NCBI GenBank assembly: GCA_947167745.1 | Contig: CAMVJE010000016.1 | Span: forward strand, 1-30,562 | DNA length: 30,562 nucleotides | Source of the DNA: an uncultured Treponema sp. | GTDB lineage: Bacteria > Spirochaetota > Spirochaetia > Treponematales > Treponemataceae | Direction of reading: 5' to 3' | Shown: positions 8,047 through 24,621 of the stretch, in pieces | Layout: each line of letters opens with the position of its first letter | How positions within the stretch are numbered: position 1 is the stretch's first letter | Program-made: the position numbers and the translations under genes | Notes under the pieces: generated by a model | The model's input: only the letters and a program-made list of their open reading frames with translations | Told to the model about the DNA's origin: nothing | The model's database searches: none

Positions 8047-10110
8047 TTATTTCTTCAAGATCCGTGCTGAGTTTGCCACAGCCAGAATACAAACACCGAC
8101 ATCACCGAATACAGCGAGCCACATGTTCCCAAAGCCAATTGCGTTCAGCAACATGATAGCAATTTTGATTCCGATTGAGATGTAAATGTTCTGCCAAACG
8201 GCGTTCATTGTGGATCTGGAGATTTTGATTGCGTCCACGAGGCGGCTTGGTTTGTCGTCCATAAGTACAACATCTGCGGCCTCAATAGCTGCATCACTTC
8301 CTAAAGCGCCCATTGCAATTCCAGCATCTGCACGGGCAAGGACAGGGCTGTCATTTATTCCATCTCCGACAAAAATAAGAGGGGTAAATTTTTTAGAGTA
8401 TAAACTATCGTTCATTAGTTCTTCAACTTTTTGAACTTTGTCTTCTGGTAGAAGGTCCGCATATAATGTGTCGATTCCAAGGTTTTCGGCCACAAGGCGG
8501 GCATTTTCTGCTCGGTCGCCGGTAAGCATGATTGTCTTTTTGATACCGAGTTTTTTAAGACTATCAATCGTTTGTTTTGAATCTTCTTTTTCTTGATCAG
8601 AAATTACTATGTTTCCGCAGTAAAGACCGTCTACTGCCACATGAACAATTGTTCCGGCTGCTACTTTTGTTTCATTTTCAAATCCGCTGACTTTCTCGTT
8701 TTCCATAAATTTTGCATTTCCTGCACAGACTTTTTTCCCATCAACTACCGCTCGTATGCCATATCCACTGACTTCTTCAGGATCTATGATTTTGAGGGCA
8801 TCACAGAGAACGCAGTGATGTGCTTTTTTGAGGGATTTTGAAATCGGGTGATTTGAGTAGCTTTCTGCGTGTGTGGCTATGGCAAGAAGCTCTTCGGCAT
8901 TCATTCCGTTTGCCGGATTCACTTCAACTACATCGAAAATGCCTTTGGTAAGGGTTCCAGTTTTATCGAAGACGGCGCTTTTAGCTTTTGAAAGAATTTC
9001 AACAAAGTTTGAACCTTTGATAAGAACACCATATTTTGAAGCTGAGCCGATTCCGCAGAAAAAAGCCAGCGGGACTGAAATTACCAGAGCGCAGGGGCAG
9101 GAAACTACAAGGAATGTTAGGGCGCGATAAATCCACACTGACCAACCATATTTTGCAAAAAGTTCCGGCATGAAGAATTGCAGAAAGAGAGGCGGAAGAA
9201 CTGCAACAGCAAGGGCTGCAAAACAAACCATTGGAGTGTAAACTCTGGCAAATCGGCCGATGAATTTTTCTGACTTGGCCTTAACAGCGCTTGCTTTTTC
9301 GGTGAGATTGAGAATTCTTGAGACCGCACTTTCGCTATACGATTTTGTGACTCGGATTTTTAAAAGGCCTGTCTGGTTTACAAAGCCTGCAAGCACTTCG
9401 CTTTGGGCAAGGGCAGATACTTCTCGCGGGAGGCTCTCTCCTGTGAGGGCAGATGTGTCGGCAAATGATTTGCCTTCGACAATGATTCCGTCAAGGGGAA
9501 TACGTTCGCCGGGTTTTACTTCAATTGTTTCACCAATCTCTACTTCTTCTGGTGAGACGACGATTGTTTTTCCAGCACGAATGACTGTGGCTTTGTCCGG
9601 ACGAATATCCATGAGGGCGGAAATTGAATCGCGGGATCGGTCAACGGCATAATCTTGTACGAATTCACCTAGATTGTAGAAAAGCATGACGGCAACGGCT
9701 TCTGCAAATTCTCCTACGAAAATTGCGCCTGCTGAAGCGATTGTCATCAGGAATTGCTCGCCAAAGACATTTCCATTGTGTATGTTGCGAACCGCACCTT
9801 TTATTACATCTCGGCCGCAAATCAGATAGGCGATAAAATAAAGTATCCCGTAAGCAAGCCGGGGAAAGTCACCAATTACCGGAAAATTTTTTGCAAGTGA
9901 TGTCATGATTGGGGAGGATGCTGAAAACATTGGAAGATGCTCAACCAGAAGGGCTACTATAAAAATTATGAAGGCAAGAATGATTTTTTTGATGGTATTT
10001 TCTTCCTCATGTTCATTTTGTTTGTGCTCTTCATGTTCGTGAGTACAGTGTCCGCAGTCGCAGTGAATGTGCTCTCCCAGGTGATTATGATGTTCGTGTC
10101 TATGTTCCAT
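8047..10110 (-). CDS. zntA: P1B-type Zn2+/Cd2+/Pb2+ exporting ATPase
   Basis: ATP-driven efflux of divalent heavy metals across the inner membrane. The 687 residues show TGES (223-226), the CPC metal site in SCPCALV (338-340), the phosphorylated Asp382 in DKTGT, the HP motif (421-422) and GDGINDSP (582-589). Lys649 in the seventh and Asp670 in the last membrane helix are the residues that mark the Zn/Cd/Pb class (P1B-2) and argue against copper. No classical N-terminal HMA domain is present. The first 36 residues instead form a His/Cys/Glu-rich tail containing CDCGHC. It follows the ArsR/SmtB gene by 36 bases with an AGGAG ribosome binding site, forming a repressor-pump operon. The symbol zntA is by function; cadA would also fit. 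Confidence 0.9.
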   Translation of the reverse strand: MEHRHEHHNHLGEHIHCDCGHCTHEHEEHKQNEHEEENTIKKIILAFIIFIVALLVEHLPMFSASSPIMTSLAKNFPVIGDFPRLAYGILYFIAYLICGRDVIKGAVRNIHNGNVFGEQFLMTIASAGAIFVGEFAEAVAVMLFYNLGEFVQDYAVDRSRDSISALMDIRPDKATVIRAGKTIVVSPEEVEIGETIEVKPGERIPLDGIIVEGKSFADTSALTGESLPREVSALAQSEVLAGFVNQTGLLKIRVTKSYSESAVSRILNLTEKASAVKAKSEKFIGRFARVYTPMVCFAALAVAVLPPLFLQFFMPELFAKYGWSVWIYRALTFLVVSCPCALVISVPLAFFCGIGSASKYGVLIKGSNFVEILSKAKSAVFDKTGTLTKGIFDVVEVNPANGMNAEELLAIATHAESYSNHPISKSLKKAHHCVLCDALKIIDPEEVSGYGIRAVVDGKKVCAGNAKFMENEKVSGFENETKVAAGTIVHVAVDGLYCGNIVISDQEKEDSKQTIDSLKKLGIKKTIMLTGDRAENARLVAENLGIDTLYADLLPEDKVQKVEELMNDSLYSKKFTPLIFVGDGINDSPVLARADAGIAMGALGSDAAIEAADVVLMDDKPSRLVDAIKISRSTMNAVWQNIYISIGIKIAIMLLNAIGFGNMWLAVFGDVGVCILAVANSARILKK

Positions 10111-10146
10111 AAATTACTCCTATTAGTTATGCACAGCAGTATGCAG

Positions 10147-10500
10147 TTACTCTTCAATGTGTTCCAGGCCTATATTTAGGATTTTTGAAACGTGTTCGTC
10201 GCTAAGGGCATAAATTAATGATTTTCCCTCTCGACGGTAGCGAACTAGCCCGTTAGTTTTGAGAAGGCGCAACTGGTGGCTAATTGCACTTTGGGTCATT
10301 CGTAGAATTTCGGATATTTCTCCTACGGAAAGTTCCCGGCCTAGAAGGGCAAAAAGGATTCTTATTCGCGTAGAATCACCGAAGATTTTAAACAGTTCGG
10401 CTAAATCAATAAGTTTATCCTCATCAGGCATATTGTCTATGATAGCCCGGAGATATTTATTTGAGAACTCGTTTTGTGTAACATTTGAATAATTGTTCAT
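10147..10500 (-). CDS. ArsR/SmtB family zinc-type repressor
   Basis: A 117-residue winged-helix repressor released from DNA by metal. The recognition helix lies in MTQSAISHQLRLLK, with the wing in YRREGKSLIYAL. The C-terminal helix carries DEH, ten residues, then HIEE, which is exactly the alpha-5 metal site pattern DXHX10HXXE of zinc sensors such as SmtB and CzrA. The alpha-3 Cys site of cadmium/lead sensors is absent. It sits upstream of the Zn/Cd ATPase and so most likely controls its own operon. Operator and promoter lie at 10481-10539. The transcript is predicted to have almost no leader. Confidence 0.9.
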   Translation of the reverse strand: MNNYSNVTQNEFSNKYLRAIIDNMPDEDKLIDLAELFKIFGDSTRIRILFALLGRELSVGEISEILRMTQSAISHQLRLLKTNGLVRYRREGKSLIYALSDEHVSKILNIGLEHIEE

Positions 10501-12249: not shown

Positions 12250-13335
12250 CTACTTGTCAGATTTCCTTCTATTACATTCCCTACAAAGCATCTGACAGTT
12301 TTCAAGATTTGTTTTACCGCCCTGACTCCACGGAGTTATATGGTCGGCTTCCATTTCTTCAAGTTCGAAATGTTTACCACATATTTTACAAATTCCGTTC
12401 TGCTTTGTATATGCCTGCAACTTTTCATTATCCGAAAAGGCACGGATTGAAAGATACTTCTCATTTCTTGTAAGTACATAGGGATAAATTCCCGATTTTT
12501 TTGTTACATCGTCATCGAGAATAAGTTTTTTGATTTCATCTTCCAATTTTATAGTATCGAATTCCGCATCCTTGTATTTGTTGTAAAGTTCGCCCCAGTT
12601 TATGCCTTTTGTATATTTAGGTCTTTTAGTCGGGAATAAGGCTTTTACCCAGGCGATTACTTTTTGAAAATAAACCCACAGAGCGGAGGCGTTTTCGTCA
12701 TGCTGATGAATTCCCATGTACTCGTCAATCTGACCATTAGAAATCCAGTCGATTACTGTTTCAAGAATTTCCTGTCTGTTTGCAGTTCCACTTACATAAT
12801 CGCCACCGAGAGAAACGGCAGGACAGCCTATTTTTGAAAAATACTTTTTAGCGTCCGAAACCCACGAACCACAGTAAACTGCATTTCTCAGCTCTTGAGG
12901 TGTAAGTTTTTCGCCTGCAATGTTTATACGCTCGAACCATTTTAATTTTTCGCTGTTTGTACCGCTGCAGATGTAAACATTAAGTTTATAATCCAAGATC
13001 TTTTTCTGCTCGTCATCCTGCAAATTGTTGAAGAATCGCATCAGGTGGGCAAAGTCACCGTTTACATACTGACAGATTGAAATTGTTCTTTGCTGACCGT
13101 CGATTACTTCATAAGTTCCGTCTCCACGGTCGGCCCAATACATTACATTGAGCGGAAAACTCTGTACGACTGAATCTATTACGGCATCGCGCTGTTTTTC
13201 TTTGTAAACGAATTCTCTCTGATAGGGCGGTCGGACATCCAGTTTTCCGCCGTAAGCCACAACTCCGCCTTCTGCATTGTCTGAAAATCCTTCTGTAAGT
13301 TCACGGATTGTTATTTCTGTCTGTTTTATTTCCAT
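12250..13335 (-). CDS. DUF262 and HNH domain nuclease
   Basis: A 361-residue protein with an N-terminal DUF262 (GmrSD/ParB-like) domain and a C-terminal HNH domain. DUF262 signatures are PPYQREFVYKEKQ (about 37-49) and DGQQRT (about 78-83), the latter the likely nucleotide-binding/hydrolysing loop. The HNH part has the zinc-ribbon pairs CKICGK and CRECNRRK around ADHITPWSQGG. DUF262 proteins with HNH ends include type IV restriction nucleases (GmrSD) and the phosphorothioate sensor SspE. Here the partner is an adenine methyltransferase gene 146 bases upstream on the same strand, so a modification-dependent or modification-inhibited restriction role is inferred. The target is unknown. Confidence 0.82.
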   Translation of the reverse strand: MEIKQTEITIRELTEGFSDNAEGGVVAYGGKLDVRPPYQREFVYKEKQRDAVIDSVVQSFPLNVMYWADRGDGTYEVIDGQQRTISICQYVNGDFAHLMRFFNNLQDDEQKKILDYKLNVYICSGTNSEKLKWFERINIAGEKLTPQELRNAVYCGSWVSDAKKYFSKIGCPAVSLGGDYVSGTANRQEILETVIDWISNGQIDEYMGIHQHDENASALWVYFQKVIAWVKALFPTKRPKYTKGINWGELYNKYKDAEFDTIKLEDEIKKLILDDDVTKKSGIYPYVLTRNEKYLSIRAFSDNEKLQAYTKQNGICKICGKHFELEEMEADHITPWSQGGKTNLENCQMLCRECNRRKSDK

Positions 13336-13354
13336 TACTTTTTTCTCCTTTTTT

Positions 13355-13436
13355 GGGGGAAGTCTCCCCCTACGCGCCCACTTCGTTGGTCGCTACCCTC
13401 TCGCCTAAGGGGGCAAGCCCCCTTAAAATCCCCCCA
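13355..13436. repeat. G/C-rich double-hairpin element between the nuclease and methyltransferase genes
   Basis: Two perfect hairpins in 82 bases: GGGGGA (13355-13360) with TCCCCC (13365-13370), loop AGTC; and TAAGGGGG (13406-13413) with CCCCCTTA (13418-13425), loop CAAG. The block is far more GC-rich than the AT-rich genes on either side. It may be an inserted intergenic repeat, or a terminator that lowers expression of the nuclease relative to the methyltransferase. Confidence 0.5.
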
Positions 13437-13481
13437 ATGTTGCCACACAGATTGGAAATTGCTAACGCAATTTCTGAAAGC

Positions 13482-14477
13482 CTATTTTTTACGCCTAATA
13501 AAAATGCGTTTGTAAACTCTGTTTCCGCAGACTACAGGTTGAGCAGTCTTACTTTCCGAATTCCATATTCCATTAGAAAATCCTTTGCCTTCACTTTCTG
13601 TTGCACCTAGTATTTCAAACTGTTGTGGATTATATTTATTCATGAAAGTAATCGGAACTCCCATAGGTTCAAAATAATCACATGGAATTTCATCAACTTT
13701 ATTTACATTTATAGCTCTATAATTATCATATTGAGGATATTCTTCTGCATTGTAGTTTTTATACAAAATTAAATCTTCATGCCTTTTTGAAATATCAAGA
13801 TTTGTATACCAGCAAGTGTTTCCTAAACTTCGCCATTTTTGACCACTTTCATCAATCCAAAACCTTGTTGTTCGTGGCATGTAGTATTCTGGAACTTTAA
13901 ATTTCATATCACCGTTAGTATATCCAAGCCAAATTTTATTCTCTTTAATAAGTGGAAATATTTCTTTATATGTTAATGCATTCTGATTCCCGATTATCAA
14001 AAACTTTTTATCATATTCTATAAGTTGTGCAACATACTCTCTGAATAGGCTGAAAGGTGGATTTGTAACAACAATGTCCGCTTCCTTTAAAAGCTCAATA
14101 CATTCCTTACTTCTAAAATCTCCGTCACCTTGAAGTTCTTTTATACCGATTTCTTCAACAGTTGGAACTTTGCTTCCATTTTTCTCACCACAATATTCAA
14201 GGCTGATTGCTTTTTCGCTGTTGTTCTGGCTGAACAAATCTCTTTCCTGATTTTTGTAGCAGGTTGTAATGAGTTTCTTCAAGCCAAGAGTTTCAAAATT
14301 ATATGAAAAGTAATGAAAGAAATTGCTTACCCGCGGGTCATCGCAGTTGCACAATACAGTTTTACCTTTGAAGTGTTCTTTATAATATTTAAGCTCGTTG
14401 GAAATATCATTTAACTGAGTGTAGAACTCATCTTCTTTTGCATCCCGGGCTTTTCCGAGACTCGCGTTTTTTGCCAT
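13482..14477 (-). CDS. EcoRI-family adenine-specific DNA methyltransferase
   Basis: A 331-residue protein resembling the M.EcoRI family (adenine N6 methylation of DNA using S-adenosylmethionine). The N-terminus reads KARDAKEDEFYTQ, the catalytic motif IV is VVTNPPFSLF (NPPF at about 138-141), and the segments VLCNCDDPRVSNF and FLIIGNQNA are typical of the family. The C-terminus ends in the basic GNRVYKRIFIRRKK. Composition is AT-rich compared with the argA or zinc genes, consistent with acquisition. A weak AAAGGG ribosome binding site precedes the ATG. The promoter and repeats lie upstream at 14490-14590. No classical EcoRI-like endonuclease is present; the DUF262-HNH gene downstream is the likely partner. 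Confidence 0.85.
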   Translation of the reverse strand: MAKNASLGKARDAKEDEFYTQLNDISNELKYYKEHFKGKTVLCNCDDPRVSNFFHYFSYNFETLGLKKLITTCYKNQERDLFSQNNSEKAISLEYCGEKNGSKVPTVEEIGIKELQGDGDFRSKECIELLKEADIVVTNPPFSLFREYVAQLIEYDKKFLIIGNQNALTYKEIFPLIKENKIWLGYTNGDMKFKVPEYYMPRTTRFWIDESGQKWRSLGNTCWYTNLDISKRHEDLILYKNYNAEEYPQYDNYRAINVNKVDEIPCDYFEPMGVPITFMNKYNPQQFEILGATESEGKGFSNGIWNSESKTAQPVVCGNRVYKRIFIRRKK

Positions 14478-14489
14478 TTTTTACCCTTT

Positions 14490-14588
14490 GTAATTACTTA
14501 GCATTTGTTGAAAATTCAGTAATTACTGAGTATATCATATAAAGTCAGAATAAATTCACTTTTAAGAGAAAAAGTCAGAAATTTTTCA
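14490..14588. promoter_or_regulatory. Divergent control region with two pairs of direct repeats
   Basis: GTAATTACTTAG (14490-14501) and GTAATTACTGAG (14519-14530) are 29 bases apart; the second lies in the perfect palindrome CAGTAATTACTG (14517-14528). AAAGTCAGAA occurs at 14541-14550 and again at 14571-14580, 30 bases apart. On the minus strand an extended -10 TG-A-TATACT (hexamer 14534-14529) places the palindrome at the methyltransferase transcription start. Spaced repeats between a methyltransferase and a divergent XRE gene suggest controller-type operators. Confidence 0.5.
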
Positions 14589-14602
14589 CATAATCCAATC
14601 TA

Positions 14603-14944
14603 ATGAGTGATTTTTGGAAACGCGTAGACGAAGAAATAGAATATAAAGGCATAAACCGAGCTTTCCTTGCAAAAAAATGCGATTTCAGTGTCACTAATAT
14701 CGGGCAGGGAATAAAATTAGGCAGCACCCCGTCTGCCGAAACTGCTGTTAAAATTGCTGCCGTTCTAGGAGTAAGCGTAGAGTATCTTGTTACTGGCGAA
14801 GAAAAAAGTAAGGAAAAAATCGAAATCGAACAAAATCAACTTCGTCTTTACCGTAAACACTCAGAAATCATAAAAAAATGTGAAGAGCTTTCTTCCGAAA
14901 AAGAAAAGCTTCTTGTCGATTTTTTAGATAAATTCGCTAAATAG
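14603..14944 (+). CDS. XRE-family helix-turn-helix regulator
   Basis: A 113-residue protein with an HTH domain in residues 1-70 (RAFLAKKCDFSVTNIGQGI, then AETAVKIAAVLGVSVEYLVTG) followed by a charged, probably coiled-coil tail of about 40 residues that may form dimers. It is transcribed away from the methyltransferase gene and is the likely binder of the repeats between them, acting as a controller of the modification-restriction genes. CATAAT (14589-14594) lies eight bases before the ATG without a ribosome binding site, so the mRNA may be leaderless. Confidence 0.8.
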   Translation: MSDFWKRVDEEIEYKGINRAFLAKKCDFSVTNIGQGIKLGSTPSAETAVKIAAVLGVSVEYLVTGEEKSKEKIEIEQNQLRLYRKHSEIIKKCEELSSEKEKLLVDFLDKFAK

Positions 14945-19285: not shown

Positions 19286-19304
19286 TTTGAGATTCATTCT
19301 CATA
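19286..19304. promoter_or_regulatory. Fur-family (Zur-like) operator 1
   Basis: TTTGAGA (19286-19292), TTCAT, TCTCATA (19298-19304): an imperfect palindrome of the same design as operator 2, ending directly before the -35 hexamer at 19305. Centres of the two operators are 45 bases apart. Confidence 0.65.
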
Positions 19305-19333
19305 TTGACAAAATTATCGCACTCGTGTAATTT
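19305..19333 (+). promoter_or_regulatory. Promoter of the zinc-starvation locus
   Basis: TTGACA (19305-19310), a 17-base spacer, and TAATTT (19328-19333). The -10 hexamer runs into operator 2, so a repressor bound there would block RNA polymerase. The start would be near 19340, about 29 bases before the ATG at 19369. Confidence 0.6.
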
Positions 19334-19349
19334 GAGACTCATTCTCAAA
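19331..19349. promoter_or_regulatory. Fur-family (Zur-like) operator 2
   Basis: TTTGAGA (19331-19337), CTCAT, TCTCAAA (19343-19349), a perfect seven-base inverted repeat. Its core TGAGAAT-n-AGTCTCA (minus strand) has the 7-1-7 layout of Fur-family boxes. It covers the -10 region and the predicted start. The zinc-related genes downstream suggest Zur rather than Fur or PerR. Confidence 0.7.
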
Positions 19350-19368: not shown

Positions 19369-19674
19369 ATGTTTTCTATTTCAAAAGGACAGAACAAAAA
19401 GGTTTCGCTTTGGCTGGCATTGCTGCTTTTGGCGGGTCTTTGTCTTTCTGTCTTTTCTGTTCATGCTGATTTTGATCATGACTGCGCAGGTGAGGATTGT
19501 CCTGTTTGCGCTGTCATTCAGATTGCAAGAACAAATTTTCAAAATCTCAATCCCGCACCTCAAATTTCACTTCAAAATAACACTTTCTTTTTTGTCGTAG
19601 TCACGCTTTTTGCAGTGAATGCGATTCGTGTATCAAAAACGCCGGTTTCAGAAAAAACTCGTCTCAATAACTGA
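19369..19674 (+). CDS. Small two-helix protein with His/Asp/Cys cluster, zinc locus
   Basis: A 101-residue protein that I do not recognise. It has an N-terminal signal-anchor-like helix (about 12-31; SLWLALLLLAGLCLSVFSV), then HADFDHDCAGEDCPVCAV (about 32-49), a potential metal-binding cluster with two His, three Cys and several acidic residues, and a second hydrophobic segment (about 73-87). The cluster would face the periplasm. It is the first gene behind the two Fur-family operators and precedes the COG0523 and ZnuA-ZinT genes, so a part in zinc capture or in sensing is inferred. Ribosome binding is weak (GGGTGA). Confidence 0.6.
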   Translation: MFSISKGQNKKVSLWLALLLLAGLCLSVFSVHADFDHDCAGEDCPVCAVIQIARTNFQNLNPAPQISLQNNTFFFVVVTLFAVNAIRVSKTPVSEKTRLNN

Positions 19675-19818: not shown

Positions 19819-20970
19819 ATGAAAAATCTTAAAAAAAAGCCTGTCGTTCTCATTACGGGCTACCTGGGGTCGGGCAAAACGACCCTTTTGAACAATCTTT
19901 TGAAGCAGGAGAAGCGTCGCGTGGCTTTGATTGTGAACGATATGGGCTCAATCAATGTGGATGCTGAAATCCTCAAAAAAGAGGGGGCAAATGTGGCGGA
20001 GTGCCCCATGTATGAGCTTCAGAACGGATGCATCTGCTGTACATTGCGGGACGAGTTTATCAAGCAGCTGGAAAAAATCTCCCAGATTGATTCGGTTGAG
20101 GTGGTTTTTGTTGAGGCTTCGGGAATTTCTGACCCGGGAGCAGTTTCTGTCAGTTTCCTTGCCTACGAGGACGAAAATCCCGACACGAATGTTCAGCTGA
20201 CTTCGGTTGTGACTGTGGTTGATGCCGACCGAATCTACAGGGAATTTTTGAGCGACCTTAAAGACGAGCTTAAAAAGCGGGATGAAGAAAAAACTGACGA
20301 AAACAATCTTACGGCGGAAGAAATCTCAACTTTAATCGTAGATCAGATTGAATTCTGCAATTTTATCATCCTGAACAAGTGCGATTTGCTGAGCGACAGG
20401 CAGCTTGAGGAAGTTCACAATATTGTCCGCCAGTTCCAGCCCAAGGCACCGATTTTCCACAGCGTAAACGGTTCGATTGAGCTTGAAAAAATCGTGACTG
20501 ACGAGCCTTTTGACTTTGAGCAGATTGATTCTTCTTCGGCAATCCAGAAGGCAATCAATTCACTTGACGGAACGAAGGGCTGCACCGACGAGTACGGAAT
20601 CACTTCCTTTGTTTATGAGGAAAAGCGGCCTTTCAACCGGGAACGCTTCACGACTTTCGTGAATGAAAAATATCCTAAGTCGCTGATTCGGGCAAAAGGC
20701 TACATCTGGTTTTCTGATGCTGACCAGGATGTGCAGCTTTTTGAGCAGGCGGGCCGGAATTCTTCGGTCATGGAAGTCTCTTACTGGGTGGACGCTCTGG
20801 TGGACGAGCAGAAAAATGAAATCCTCGCCGACAATCCCGACATGAAGGAAAACTGGGACCCTGAATTCGGCGACCGTGAGAATCAGATTGTCTTTATCGG
20901 AAAAGGCTACAATCAGGCGGAAATTAAAGCTGCACTGGAAAAATGCCTGGATGATAAGGCAATAGCATAG
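19819..20970 (+). CDS. COG0523 family GTPase, probable zinc metallochaperone
   Basis: A 383-residue G3E-family GTPase. Visible are the P-loop GYLGSGKTT (14-22), the metal-binding CXCC motif GCICCTLRDEF (Cys71, Cys73, Cys74), the guanine motif NKCD, and a CobW-type C-terminal domain ending WDPEFGDRENQIVFIGKG. Relatives such as ZigA, ZagA and YciC deliver zinc to client enzymes during zinc shortage and are Zur-regulated. The position between two Zur-like operators and a ZnuA homologue supports this role over cobalt or nitrile hydratase functions. A GAGGAAAA ribosome binding site precedes the ATG. An acidic insertion (KKRDEEKTDENN, about 153-164) lies before the NKCD motif. Confidence 0.87.
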   Translation: MKNLKKKPVVLITGYLGSGKTTLLNNLLKQEKRRVALIVNDMGSINVDAEILKKEGANVAECPMYELQNGCICCTLRDEFIKQLEKISQIDSVEVVFVEASGISDPGAVSVSFLAYEDENPDTNVQLTSVVTVVDADRIYREFLSDLKDELKKRDEEKTDENNLTAEEISTLIVDQIEFCNFIILNKCDLLSDRQLEEVHNIVRQFQPKAPIFHSVNGSIELEKIVTDEPFDFEQIDSSSAIQKAINSLDGTKGCTDEYGITSFVYEEKRPFNRERFTTFVNEKYPKSLIRAKGYIWFSDADQDVQLFEQAGRNSSVMEVSYWVDALVDEQKNEILADNPDMKENWDPEFGDRENQIVFIGKGYNQAEIKAALEKCLDDKAIA

Positions 20971-21002
20971 AAAAAGCAGGATTTTAGGATTTATCAACTG
21001 AA

Positions 21003-21099
21003 TAAAAATTGGTCTCCCGTCGGGAACGCGCCATCAAACATCGCTGTGAGCAAAGCTCAGGCGAGTTTGTGTCGCAACCCCGACTCCGACCAATTTTTA
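21003..21099. other. Structured element with 12-bp terminal inverted repeat
   Basis: TAAAAATTGGTC (21003-21014) is perfectly complementary to GACCAATTTTTA (21088-21099). Inside are a TCCCG-T-CGGGA hairpin and a GAGC-AAA-GCTC hairpin (about 21048-21058), so the 97-nt unit could fold as a multi-branched structure. It fills the gap between the COG0523 gene and znuA. Options are a transcriptional attenuator or partial terminator, a processing site, or a short inserted repeat. Confidence 0.45.
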
Positions 21100-21157
21100 G
21101 CAATCCTAAAATTTAAAAAGCTGCATTTTAGTTAATAAAAATATAGAGGAAATGAAT

Positions 21158-22786
21158 ATGAAAAAAATATTTGCACTTGCGGGCATTTTGCTTGCCCTTG
21201 GAATGGGTTCGGCTTTTGCGAAAAAGGCTTCGAACGAGAACAAAATCAAAGTCGTGACGACGATTTTCCCGGAATATGACTGGGCAAGAGAGGTCATCGG
21301 AGAGAAAGCTGACGATGTGGAACTTACCCTGCTTTTGAACAACGGCGTGGATTTGCATTCTTACCAGCCTAGCGTAAAGGATATCGCCAAGATTCAGGAT
21401 GCTGACATTTTTGTTTATGTGGGCGGCGAAAGCGATGAATGGGTGGAGGATGTTCTGAAGAATGTCAAATCCCCCAATCAGAAAGTAATCAATTTGCTTG
21501 AGGTCTTAGGCGACCGGGTTAAGGCAGAGGAAATTGTTGAGGGAATGGAGCATGAACACCATCACGGGCATGACCACGATGATGACGAGCATGGCCACGA
21601 TGACCATGACGGAGACCATCACGAACACGGCCACGACCATGATGAAGAAATTACAGAAGCTGACATTAAACCAAGATCTGTTTCTGAATTTGCCGGTGAA
21701 TGGCAGTCACTCTACCCTGTTCTTATGACAGGTGCTCTCGATGAATATGTTGAATTCCAGGCAGAAAAAAAATCAATTTCTGTAAAAGATTCTCGTGCAG
21801 AAATCGAAGCTAAATGGAACTGCAGAATTAAAACAATCAAAATCAAGGGTGATGAAATTACTCTTATTTATGATAACGGTAAAAAAGAAAGCGGTTCATA
21901 CAAATATGCCGGTTTTGCAACAAAGAAAAATGACCAGGGAAAAATCTCAAGCATCCGCCACAAGTTCTCACTGGTAAAGGGAAATGGTCCAAAATATGTA
22001 ATGCTTAACGATCACGGTTACAAACCGGTAAAATCTGTTGAACACTTTCATATTTACTTTGGAAACAACAACTTTGATGAACTTTTAACTACAAAATCAA
22101 ATCCATTCTTCGTAGATTCAAAACTTGATGCAAAAGGCTGTCTTGCAAATGTAATGGGACATGAAAAGGGTCATGATCACGGTCATGAAGCCCACGAACA
22201 TGAATATCACCATGATGAGCACGGTCATCACCACGACCACGAAGATGAAGAAAAAGACGAGCATGTCTGGCTTTCCCTTAAAAATGCCCAGATTCTCACG
22301 AGTGCGATTTGCGACGCTCTCTGCCAGGCTGATTCAAAAAATGCCGGCACTTACAAGAAAAATCTCGCTGCTTACAATGCAAAACTTTCCGACCTTGATT
22401 CAAAATATGAGGCCGCCGTAAAGGCAGCAAGCAAAAATACCCTTCTTTTCGGAGACCGCTTCCCCTTCCGCTATCTTGTGGACGACTACGGATTAAAATA
22501 TTTCGCGGCGTTCAGCGGATGTTCTGCCGAAAGCGAGGCCAGCTTCAAGACAATCGTATTCCTTTCTGAAAAAGTGAACGAGCTTGGACTGAATTCAGTC
22601 TGCCAGATTGAAAGCGGAAACGGCAAAATCGCCAAAACCATAATTTCCAACAGCAAAAACAAAAAGGCCAGGGTTCTGACCTTTGACTCTCTCCAGTCAA
22701 CAACGGCTAAGCAGATAAAAAAAGGCGCCACATATTATGGCGCCATGGAGAAAAATCTCGAAGTTTTGAAAGAAGCTTTGAAGTAA
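21158..22786 (+). CDS. znuA: Zinc-binding protein with ZinT domain nested in ZnuA
   Basis: Periplasmic zinc-capture protein of 542 residues. Residues 1-21 are a signal peptide ending GSAFA. The ZnuA N-lobe (about 28-128) has the zinc ligand motif DLHSYQPSVKD (His67). A His/Asp-rich stretch (131-162), a complete ZinT domain (about 177-335; FAGEWQSLYPVL to VEHFHIYFGN, with His296 and His298) and a second His-rich stretch (335-369) follow. The ZnuA C-lobe then resumes at DEHVWLSLKNA (His369). A normal ZnuA has one His-rich loop at this place, so ZinT sits inside it. In AdcA of streptococci ZinT is at the C-terminus instead. The third canonical His is replaced by FGDRFPFRYL. Start 21158 is chosen over 21152 because GAGGA is seven bases away. 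The znuB and znuC genes are not nearby. Confidence 0.87.
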   Translation: MKKIFALAGILLALGMGSAFAKKASNENKIKVVTTIFPEYDWAREVIGEKADDVELTLLLNNGVDLHSYQPSVKDIAKIQDADIFVYVGGESDEWVEDVLKNVKSPNQKVINLLEVLGDRVKAEEIVEGMEHEHHHGHDHDDDEHGHDDHDGDHHEHGHDHDEEITEADIKPRSVSEFAGEWQSLYPVLMTGALDEYVEFQAEKKSISVKDSRAEIEAKWNCRIKTIKIKGDEITLIYDNGKKESGSYKYAGFATKKNDQGKISSIRHKFSLVKGNGPKYVMLNDHGYKPVKSVEHFHIYFGNNNFDELLTTKSNPFFVDSKLDAKGCLANVMGHEKGHDHGHEAHEHEYHHDEHGHHHDHEDEEKDEHVWLSLKNAQILTSAICDALCQADSKNAGTYKKNLAAYNAKLSDLDSKYEAAVKAASKNTLLFGDRFPFRYLVDDYGLKYFAAFSGCSAESEASFKTIVFLSEKVNELGLNSVCQIESGNGKIAKTIISNSKNKKARVLTFDSLQSTTAKQIKKGATYYGAMEKNLEVLKEALK

Positions 22787-22818: not shown

Positions 22819-24621
22819 TTACACTTTGAATTTTTTGACTTCGTTTAAAAGGGCAGAAATGCTTGACTTGTTTTCGTTTGACAGCTCGTTTACGCTGTTA
22901 ACTGCTTCGCTAATTTGATCTGCGCCACTTGCCATTTCGTTCATTCCACCGTTGATTTCCTGAGTGATGTTGTTCATGTTTTTTGCCTCGGAAGTGATTT
23001 GGTTGCTTCCGTTGAGCATTTCTACTGAACTTGACTGAACTTTGCTTGAGATATCGTTAAGTTTGTTCAAAGCCTGGAGAACATTCTTGCTGTCAATGGA
23101 CTGATTTTCGACGGTTTTTCGGATTGTTGTTTCCTGATTTGAGACTGTCGCAACTCCGTTTTCAATCAAAGTGAACTGAGAAACGACTTCTTCTGCATAA
23201 GAAATAACGGTTGCGATTGATTCCTTGATTTTTGCAAGAACTGAAGTAATTGTGTTTGTTTGCGAAGAAGAATTTTCTGCAAGTTTTCGGACTTCATCTG
23301 CGACGACCGCAAAGCCTTTTCCTGTTTCGCCGGCATGTGCTGCCTCAATTGCTGCATTCATTGCAAGAAGATTTGTCTGGCTTGCGATTCCCTGAATGAC
23401 ATTACTGATTTCCATAAGGCTTTCTGATTCCCGAGAAACTTCTTGAATTGCTTCGGTGATTTTATCGAGTACCATTCGTCCGGCCTGAGAAGTTCGTGAA
23501 AGTTCATCGATATTCTGGGTATTTTTTGCCAGAGTAGAGACCACGGAATCAATGCTGCCGATAAGGTCCTGAATTGAGGATTCTGATTCCTTAATGTTAA
23601 GATTCTGCTCTTTTATGAGCTGACTGAGCCTGTCGATTCCTCCAGAAATCTGTTCCATTGTGCTGGTTGTTTCAGTTACGCTTGCAGACTGATTAATTGT
23701 CTGATTTTTGATACTTCTGATGTTTTCGGTGATTTCATTGATTGCGGCTGCGGTTTCGGTCATGTTTGAGGCAAGTTCTACACCAACATTTTCAAGCCGC
23801 TCGCTCTGATCCTGAACAGAAGAAACCAGATGGTGGATTTTTTCAAATGTACTGTTGAAGTAAGTTGCCATGTCGCCGATTTCGTCAGAAGTATTGATTT
23901 CAATGCGTCGGGTCAAATCACCTTCACCTTCGGAAATATCTTTTAAGATTGCGGTGAATTTTTTAATCGGTTTTGAGATGATACTTGAAATAACGATTCC
24001 TAAAAGGGTGAGAATGATGGTAGAAAGTATTCCAAGACAAACTGCGGTCATTAAAAGCTTATTTGAGTCTTTGTCAATTTTGCTGACATCTGTTTTTAGT
24101 TCATTAACCTGTTCGTCAACAAAGAGATTGACTGATTCATAAATTTCTTCGGCAAACGGGTCGAATTTTTCCATATATTCATTTCCCTGAGACGGACCAT
24201 ATTCGATGTAAGTAGCGGCCATTTGCTTTCCGACATTGTAAAATTCTTCAAATGATTTAGAAAGTTCGTCCAGTTGGGAAATTTTTTCATAATTTTCTTT
24301 TTTGTTGTAGAAATTTTTATATTCCTGAATGATTTGGCGGAATCCTTTTGCGTGCTCCTCAGCTTCATCGTAGCCATCATCAAAGCCTTCTGCCCCTCGT
24401 GTTGCGGAGATATCCGTGAGCCACTGTTGGACTTGAATAACATGCATTTGAAGGTCTTTTGCGTTGAGAGTGTTAGGAAGGATTTCCATTTCTGAAGAAT
24501 AAGCGATTTGTCTAAAATTTACAGCATTTTTTGCAATTACAGCAGACAAAACAACAATGACCAAAATTGCGGCAAAGTATCAGCTAATGATTTTGGTGAA
24601 AAGATTGGATTTGATTTTCAT
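22819..24621 (-). CDS. Methyl-accepting chemotaxis protein with in-frame stop at codon 14
   Basis: A chemoreceptor with N-terminal membrane helix, periplasmic four-helix-type sensor (with [13 protein letters not shown]), second helix (about 172-195 from the inner TTG), HAMP region ([20 protein letters not shown]) and a full signalling domain with the hairpin tip [20 protein letters not shown]. The natural start is the ATG at 24621 with GAGGCG upstream, giving [13 protein letters not shown] and then TGA (24582-24580), after which [10 protein letters not shown] continues the first membrane helix in the same frame. A TTG at 24564 would give 581 residues, but it has no ribosome binding site and would lose the N-terminal charges and half of the helix. 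TGG to TGA (Trp to stop) is the simplest explanation, by mutation or sequencing error. Confidence 0.8.

Follow-up and report, generated by a model that had tools for sequence, protein, structure and literature searches.

We analyzed a 30,562-nucleotide contig of an uncultured Treponema species (CAMVJE010000016.1; the whole stretch is hereafter called the window), in which a gene on the forward strand, at positions 21158 to 22786 with the stop codon included, encodes a 542-residue protein combining ZnuA and ZinT. The protein is, with near certainty, a ZnuA with a complete ZinT domain set between its two lobes and flanked on either side by a His-rich arm. The ZnuA N-lobe comprises residues 23 to 129 (21224 to 21544) and is largely ordered in the predicted structure. 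It is followed by the left His-rich arm, residues 130 to 166 (21545 to 21655), which has 14 histidines in 37 residues and is mostly modeled with low confidence. The ZinT domain, delimited by Pfam and alignment, covers residues 167 to 334 (21656 to 22159), and the right His-rich arm covers residues 335 to 363 (22160 to 22246), with 11 histidines in 24 residues and again low confidence in the model. The C-lobe, residues 364 to 542 (361 to 542 in the domain search), lies at 22247 to 22783. All of these parts are on the forward strand. The His-rich loop between the ZnuA lobes is thus present as two arms, and the two-lobed substrate-binding fold of ZnuA is retained despite the insert. A Sec-type signal was recognized by eye at the N terminus; its region contains no cysteine, as would be needed for a lipoprotein anchor. 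The start at 21158 was favored over that at 21152 because a GAGG motif, read by eye, sits 8 nucleotides upstream.

The domain search yielded the order N-lobe, ZinT, C-lobe, and together with the histidine counts it agrees with the initial annotation, made from the DNA letters, which had described a ZinT domain nested between the ZnuA lobes and flanked by two His-rich arms. The ZnuA family (PF01297) matched with 226 bits against a cut-off of 29, in two stretches spanning both lobes. The ZinT family (PF09223) matched with 104.5 bits against a cut-off of 27 over profile positions 11 to 181 of 181, corresponding to residues 168 to 337 in a 544-residue reading, or 166 to 335 counted from the start at 21158. 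A chance match or a misdrawn domain was ruled out by these scores, which lie far over both cut-offs; since the ligand positions are also conserved, the nested architecture is not due to chance. The NCBIfam model of AdcA (NF033605), the streptococcal protein compared below, matched in separate stretches with 221.7 bits, under its curated cut-off of 700.

Alignment with AdcA and ZinT chains placed the ZinT zinc-ligand positions at H286, H296, and H298 (22013 to 22051), where histidine is found in 134, 132, and 133 of 134 cassettes, respectively. In the lobes, alignment with AdcA, whose zinc ligands are named in excerpts of PMC3842936, gave H67 (21356 to 21358) and H369 (22262 to 22264; the histidine of DPHVW in AdcA), conserved in 189 and 188 of 190 lobe sets. 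The acidic residue E485 (22610 to 22612), conserved in 190 of 190, lies in a stretch that aligns, in approximate register with Glu279, with the glutamate ligand region of AdcA. The place of the third ligand histidine of AdcA is occupied by D433-R434 (22454 to 22459). Given the conserved positions, both the ZinT and the ZnuA sites probably bind metal. Moreover, silent changes outnumbered replacing ones in all five cassette pairs compared, as in L041 versus L045 (34 silent and 9 replacing changes among 169 codons), which suggests that the ZinT domain is maintained for function.

The nested form recurs widely. Among the best 120 of 7998 protein relatives, ranked by likeness to the window protein and hence biased toward it, 73 carry ZinT between the lobes, in one copy (58 proteins), two (12), or three (3), and 47 are without it. 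A scan of genome contigs gave 27 loci, 23 of them complete with one ZinT; L002 has two copies, L026 carries three and runs off the contig within its C-lobe, L017 stops after ZinT, and L027 is without an N-lobe. In the family of genome G001, PF09223 matched in 44 of 274 genomes (42 over the cut-off). There, 30 of 49 ZinT places were mapped: 26 are complete nested genes, two more, one cut by a contig end (L050) and one in split frames (L057), fit nesting, and the remaining two are L059 and L060, described below. Nested genes were also found in eight of the nine genomes with ZinT among 149 relatives of Ruminococcus flavefaciens, the ninth (G300) having ZinT alone. In Brachyspira, only one of 26 genomes (G004) has a reading frame of sufficient length for the nested form. 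The lobes of the Brachyspira catarrhinii locus (L016) group with Clostridia on the lobe tree described below, and this grouping suggests whole-gene transfer into that species. No C-terminal ZinT was seen in the protein, contig, and family sets examined, the protein list being the biased one. As for a free-standing ZinT close to that of the window, none of 19 candidates passed in a search with a 168-residue query, which required shared 5-residue words and misses distant ZinTs. Viral contigs, in which four stretches matched a pattern, yielded no relatives. As a separate observation, frames of approximately 400 to 460 residues with weak ZinT matches occur in 13 genomes of Treponemataceae (G035, G037 to G046, G049, and G050), with two such places close together in five of them; two of these frames, L059 and L060, each contain a pair of weak ZinT-like domains and lack the lobes.

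A tract of 533 bp that spans ZinT and extends into the inner ends of both arms (21635 to 22167, forward strand) is identical to that of L001, a metagenome-assembled genome (MAG) of another Treponema. In the DNA and third-position comparison, from which 14 repeated loci were left out, the lobes of these two genes are 75% identical, and the third positions of unchanged residues are 55% alike, versus 100% in ZinT. The neighboring GTPase gene is 82% identical in DNA, and the longest word shared by L001 and the window before position 21000 measures 41 bases. A second relative, G126 (L071/L101), has upstream genes 94 to 97% and a downstream gene 91% identical in DNA to those of the window, and the loop of its znuA is empty. 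It is without the GTPase gene and the gene at 22819 to 24564, and its plain allele matches the outer parts of both arms, which fits the initial proposal that both halves of the original loop were kept. The loop is likewise empty in G081 (L102). In G127 (L104), the block is 87 to 92% identical to the window, partly rearranged relative to its neighbors, and the ZinT domain is only 36% identical in protein.

Similar incongruence was observed across the relatives. The tree, correlation, and ligand sets started from 211 entries in which both lobes were of sufficient length. Removal of repeats left 190 rows, made up of 75 plain rows and of 99, 13, and 3 rows with one, two, and three ZinT copies, respectively; the plain rows had been sampled only near the window (47 of the best 120 proteins and 28 loci). 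In the 99 single-ZinT proteins, N-lobe and C-lobe identities were correlated (rho 0.75), versus 0.17 for N-lobe and ZinT and 0.16 for C-lobe and ZinT; for the 48 proteins nearest the window, the values were 0.81, 0.18, and 0.19. A separate set of pairwise identities, from which the values for P0001, P0003, and P0004 given below are taken, comprised 108 single-ZinT rows of 176 entries, with P0049 and P0084 left out and seven repeated loci skipped. In 99 pairs sharing at least 85% identity in the lobes, ZinT identity was below 50% in 35, 50 to 80% in 22, and at least 80% in 42. For 18 of the 99 nested proteins, a plain relative exists with lobes at least 90% identical. On the lobe tree, changes between plain and nested forms numbered 30 (in 300 shuffles, 59 on average and no fewer than 50) and changes of cassette type numbered 73 (110 on average and no fewer than 103), counts that do not separate gain from loss. 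The nested or plain state thus appears to keep some phylogenetic signal and yet to be very labile. Overall, these comparisons indicate that ZinT with the inner arm ends is likely an exchangeable cassette, gained, lost, stacked, and swapped in one loop.

The initial annotation had argued for a recent ZinT graft from the GC content of individual 60-base lines. Its counts were reproduced within one point (43, 33, 30, and 42% in ZinT, the last given as 43%, and 48 and 53% in the lobes), and ZinT as a whole has a GC content of 0.36 and a third-position GC content (GC3) of 0.28, versus 0.46 and 0.53 in the lobes. The greatest drops in GC3 from lobes to ZinT among the loci compared were those of L019 (0.28), the window (0.25), and L041 (0.19). 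In many other loci the difference is small, and GC alone was therefore discarded as weak evidence of transfer. The recent graft is better founded on the 533-bp identical tract and the empty-loop relative, which support it. As a singular event, however, it was ruled out by the wide recurrence of the form, with ZinT between the lobes in the 73 relatives mentioned above and in 25 of the 27 genome-contig loci.

Cassette-like domains were also found outside bacteria. When the ZinT region was used as the sole query, 37 proteins were returned, of which 35 are nested, save P0129, which is without an N-lobe. The other two, P0121 and P0128, whose records are both marked partial, are proteins of Piromyces sp. 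E2, a fungus of the Neocallimastigomycota that lives anaerobically in the gut. P0128 contains a single ZinT domain, and P0121 contains three, of which the last is incomplete, with His-rich linkers; neither protein matched the lobe models. The first domain of P0121 reaches at most 52% identity with type A cassettes, and its second at most 62% with type C; the third repeats the first, as judged by eye. In the ZinT tree, the fungal domains lie on long branches within the A/B and C groups (support of 97 and 96). Since the A-C order also occurs in P0025 of R. flavefaciens, these A- and C-like domains suggest that a cassette pair moved from a gut bacterium to a fungus.

Taken together, we consider it quite probable that the gene encodes the secreted zinc-binding protein of an ATP-binding cassette (ABC) importer, a ZnuA carrying an exchangeable ZinT cassette in its inter-lobe His-rich loop. 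ZinT would capture zinc at its His triad, and the two flexible arms, tethering it at both ends, would convey the metal to the ZnuA cleft, for delivery by ZnuA to a permease whose gene lies elsewhere. By horizontal transfer, presumably through recombination, this one loop would have gained or lost the cassette, accumulated up to three copies, and exchanged one cassette for another many times, while the lobes follow the host lineage. The hand-over from ZinT to the cleft, which the initial annotation had proposed, is plausible by analogy with published work on AdcA and on Salmonella, in which either ZinT or the loop is required according to excerpts of PMC3842936. More broadly, and with somewhat less assurance, we lean toward viewing the loop of this ZnuA subfamily as a standing exchange site, supplied by a community pool of ZinT domains with their own His-rich ends across spirochaetes, Clostridia, and anaerobic gut fungi, so that zinc capture may be tuned while the transporter interface stays fixed.

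Several observations weigh against this explanation. Regarding the exchange, the correlation between lobes and ZinT among the 48 proteins nearest the window (0.19) is above permutation and thus non-zero (p 0.004), ZinT is at least 80% identical in 42 of the 99 close pairs, and 58 of the 182 inner branches of the lobe tree (190 rows, quick method) are open. The idea that the His-rich arms act as recombination hot spots through shared exact DNA was also not supported: in 400 random pairs, the longest shared exact words had medians of 10 bases in left arms and 9 in right arms, versus 10 and 11 in lobe pieces of equal length, and left arms after synonymous shuffling gave a median of 9 (150 pairs). 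In addition, 23 of the 27 genome-contig loci are MAG records, and P0004 combines lobes identical to those of L001 with a ZinT domain 97% identical, as would be expected from merged similar cassettes. Both facts speak for an assembly chimera, in which the lobes of one species were joined to a ZinT repeat of another and the swapping would be partly an artifact; because of P0004, the exact identity of the 533-bp tract could in part reflect assembly merging. We regard such a chimera as improbable. Alternatively, the nested form might be ancestral in the subfamily, with plain ZnuA arising by repeated loss and little horizontal exchange. On the lobe tree rooted at its midpoint, in which plain rows are sampled only near the window, the deeper rows are indeed nested. 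However, loss alone cannot yield ZinT domains 33% identical on lobes 91% identical (P0001 and P0020), nor ZinT domains 99% identical on lobes 67% identical (P0003 and P0008). It also leaves the 533-bp tract unexplained, and both the low GC3 of the window ZinT relative to its lobes and the present incongruence of ZinT and lobes speak against it, which makes this history very improbable.

On the functional side of the same balance, the structure model (pTM, 0.56) has both arms at low confidence and assigns ZinT no fixed place, so that it does not bear out the initial suggestion of a ZinT positioned directly over the cleft. In place of the third canonical histidine of ZnuA, all 190 relatives compared, plain or nested, have Asp-Arg. 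No permease was found among the 14 open reading frames of the window scanned; a PF00950 permease gene lies near the nested gene in G003 and G004 and on other contigs in G001, G127, G002, and G065, and none was found in G126. Furthermore, the arms of nested loops have medians of 19 residues with 5 histidines and 9.5 residues with 3 histidines (50 loci), whereas plain loops have a median of 35 residues with 12 histidines (30 loci). A general hand-over role is weakened by these many short, His-poor arms; those of the window, with 14 and 11 histidines, stand at the His-rich end of the range. The same short arms would suit a loop ZinT that serves as a zinc buffer or a host-contact domain and not as a donor to the cleft, as would the fungal proteins that carry ZinT without a lobe-model match. 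Plasminogen binding has reportedly been described for the C-terminal domain of AdcA (PMC8878332), which also counts in favor of this role. In excerpts of the AdcA study (PMC7858048), growth under zinc restriction was not significantly affected when either the ZinT domain or the loop was lost by itself, which fits a buffer, and loss of both accessory regions caused a growth defect, which argues against it. ZinT, moreover, sits in the inter-lobe loop in all 73 ZinT carriers among the best 120 relatives, and histidine is retained at each triad position in at least 132 of 134 cassettes. We therefore rate a buffer or host-contact role as rather unlikely.

The gene preceding znuA (19819 to 20970, forward strand) encodes a CobW/COG0523-type GTPase according to Pfam and NCBIfam, a candidate zinc metallochaperone; its best NCBIfam match, ZigA, scored 302.8 bits, under the cut-off of 600. 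Two genes ahead of znuA lies a gene for a small protein of 101 residues (19369 to 19674, forward strand), which carries the motif HDCAGEDCPVC and has no Pfam match. Among 13 loci chosen from about 107, the same arrangement, with the small gene followed by the GTPase gene and znuA, is seen in L001, L003, L103, L104, and L107. L008 has the GTPase gene only, and L002 has the small gene before znuA and the GTPase gene after it. The small gene is found without the GTPase gene in L071/L101, L102, and L106, and neither is found in L006 and L016. Ahead of the small gene, at 19288 to 19347 on the forward strand, is a pair of boxes 45 bp apart (TGAGANTCATTCTCA), each departing at one position from the palindrome searched for, which we take to resemble Fur-family operators. 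At up to three mismatches, this palindrome has 7 matches in the window versus 2.3 in shuffled windows, and box pairs 45 to 46 bp apart were found in 7 of 16 loci scanned, chosen from about 119 (L001, L006, L101, L102, L103, L104, and L107), and were absent in the other nine. Zur control of the locus through these Fur-family-like boxes would fit. Between the GTPase gene and znuA (20971 to 21130) lies a 160-bp palindrome-like intergenic element with nested inverted repeats, present in a single copy in the window; an 89% identical copy in the opposite orientation precedes znuA in L101/L071. Rfam gave no matches in the window at gathering scores. Elsewhere in the window are a zinc/cadmium-type P-type ATPase with a very His-rich N terminus, adjoining an ArsR-family regulator (8047 to 10500), and a GmrSD-N/HNH nuclease next to an EcoRI-type adenine methylase and a small helix-turn-helix regulator (12250 to 14944), a possible restriction-modification system.

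The locus would be a case in which an internal domain, not a whole gene, has apparently been traded between species and phyla. It also bears on the long-standing question of the role of ZinT and the His-rich loop in zinc uptake by ZnuA. The relatives supply plain, one-, two-, and three-ZinT versions as well as unrelated cassettes on similar lobes. With ZinT and the loop in one chain and such natural variants available, intramolecular zinc transfer becomes directly testable.

Both domains and the AdcA fusion are already known, whereas no description of ZinT inside the ZnuA loop, of stacking in two or three copies, or of exchange at one loop was found in the open-access literature, searched by titles and starts of abstracts. 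Of the possibility considered in the initial annotation, that the nested order is standard and fully described in many taxa, the wide occurrence holds and the prior description does not. Polymorphic toxins and HsdS target-recognition domains offer a familiar parallel, in that a variable domain is exchanged between lineages within a conserved frame; in the present case, the frame is that of a nutrient-binding protein, into which a metal-binding domain is inserted internally. ZnuA of Escherichia coli and YcdH of Bacillus subtilis share the two-lobed metal-binding fold and the His-rich loop and have no ZinT insert. ZinT (YodA) of E. coli and Salmonella belongs to the same Pfam family, with aligned His-triad positions, but is a separate periplasmic protein, while the ZinT of the window is an insert without its own signal. 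The closest likeness is AdcA of Streptococcus pneumoniae (7jj9), the best PDB sequence match of the window protein and likewise a single chain with a ZnuA-like substrate-binding protein, a His-rich loop, and ZinT. AdcA is a lipoprotein whose one ZinT follows the complete ZnuA part (approximately residues 305 to 458 of the chain), whereas in the window protein ZinT lies inside the loop, a topology different from that of AdcA, as the initial annotation had pointed out. The aligned AdcA and YcdH rows also keep the third ligand histidine, unlike the window subfamily with its Asp-Arg. According to excerpts of the AdcA study (PMC7858048), the His-rich loop of that protein is situated where its two domains meet, and the authors speculate that the loop passes zinc from ZinT to the cleft. 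A ZinT domain placed within the loop and tethered at both ends would be a direct physical form of that idea.
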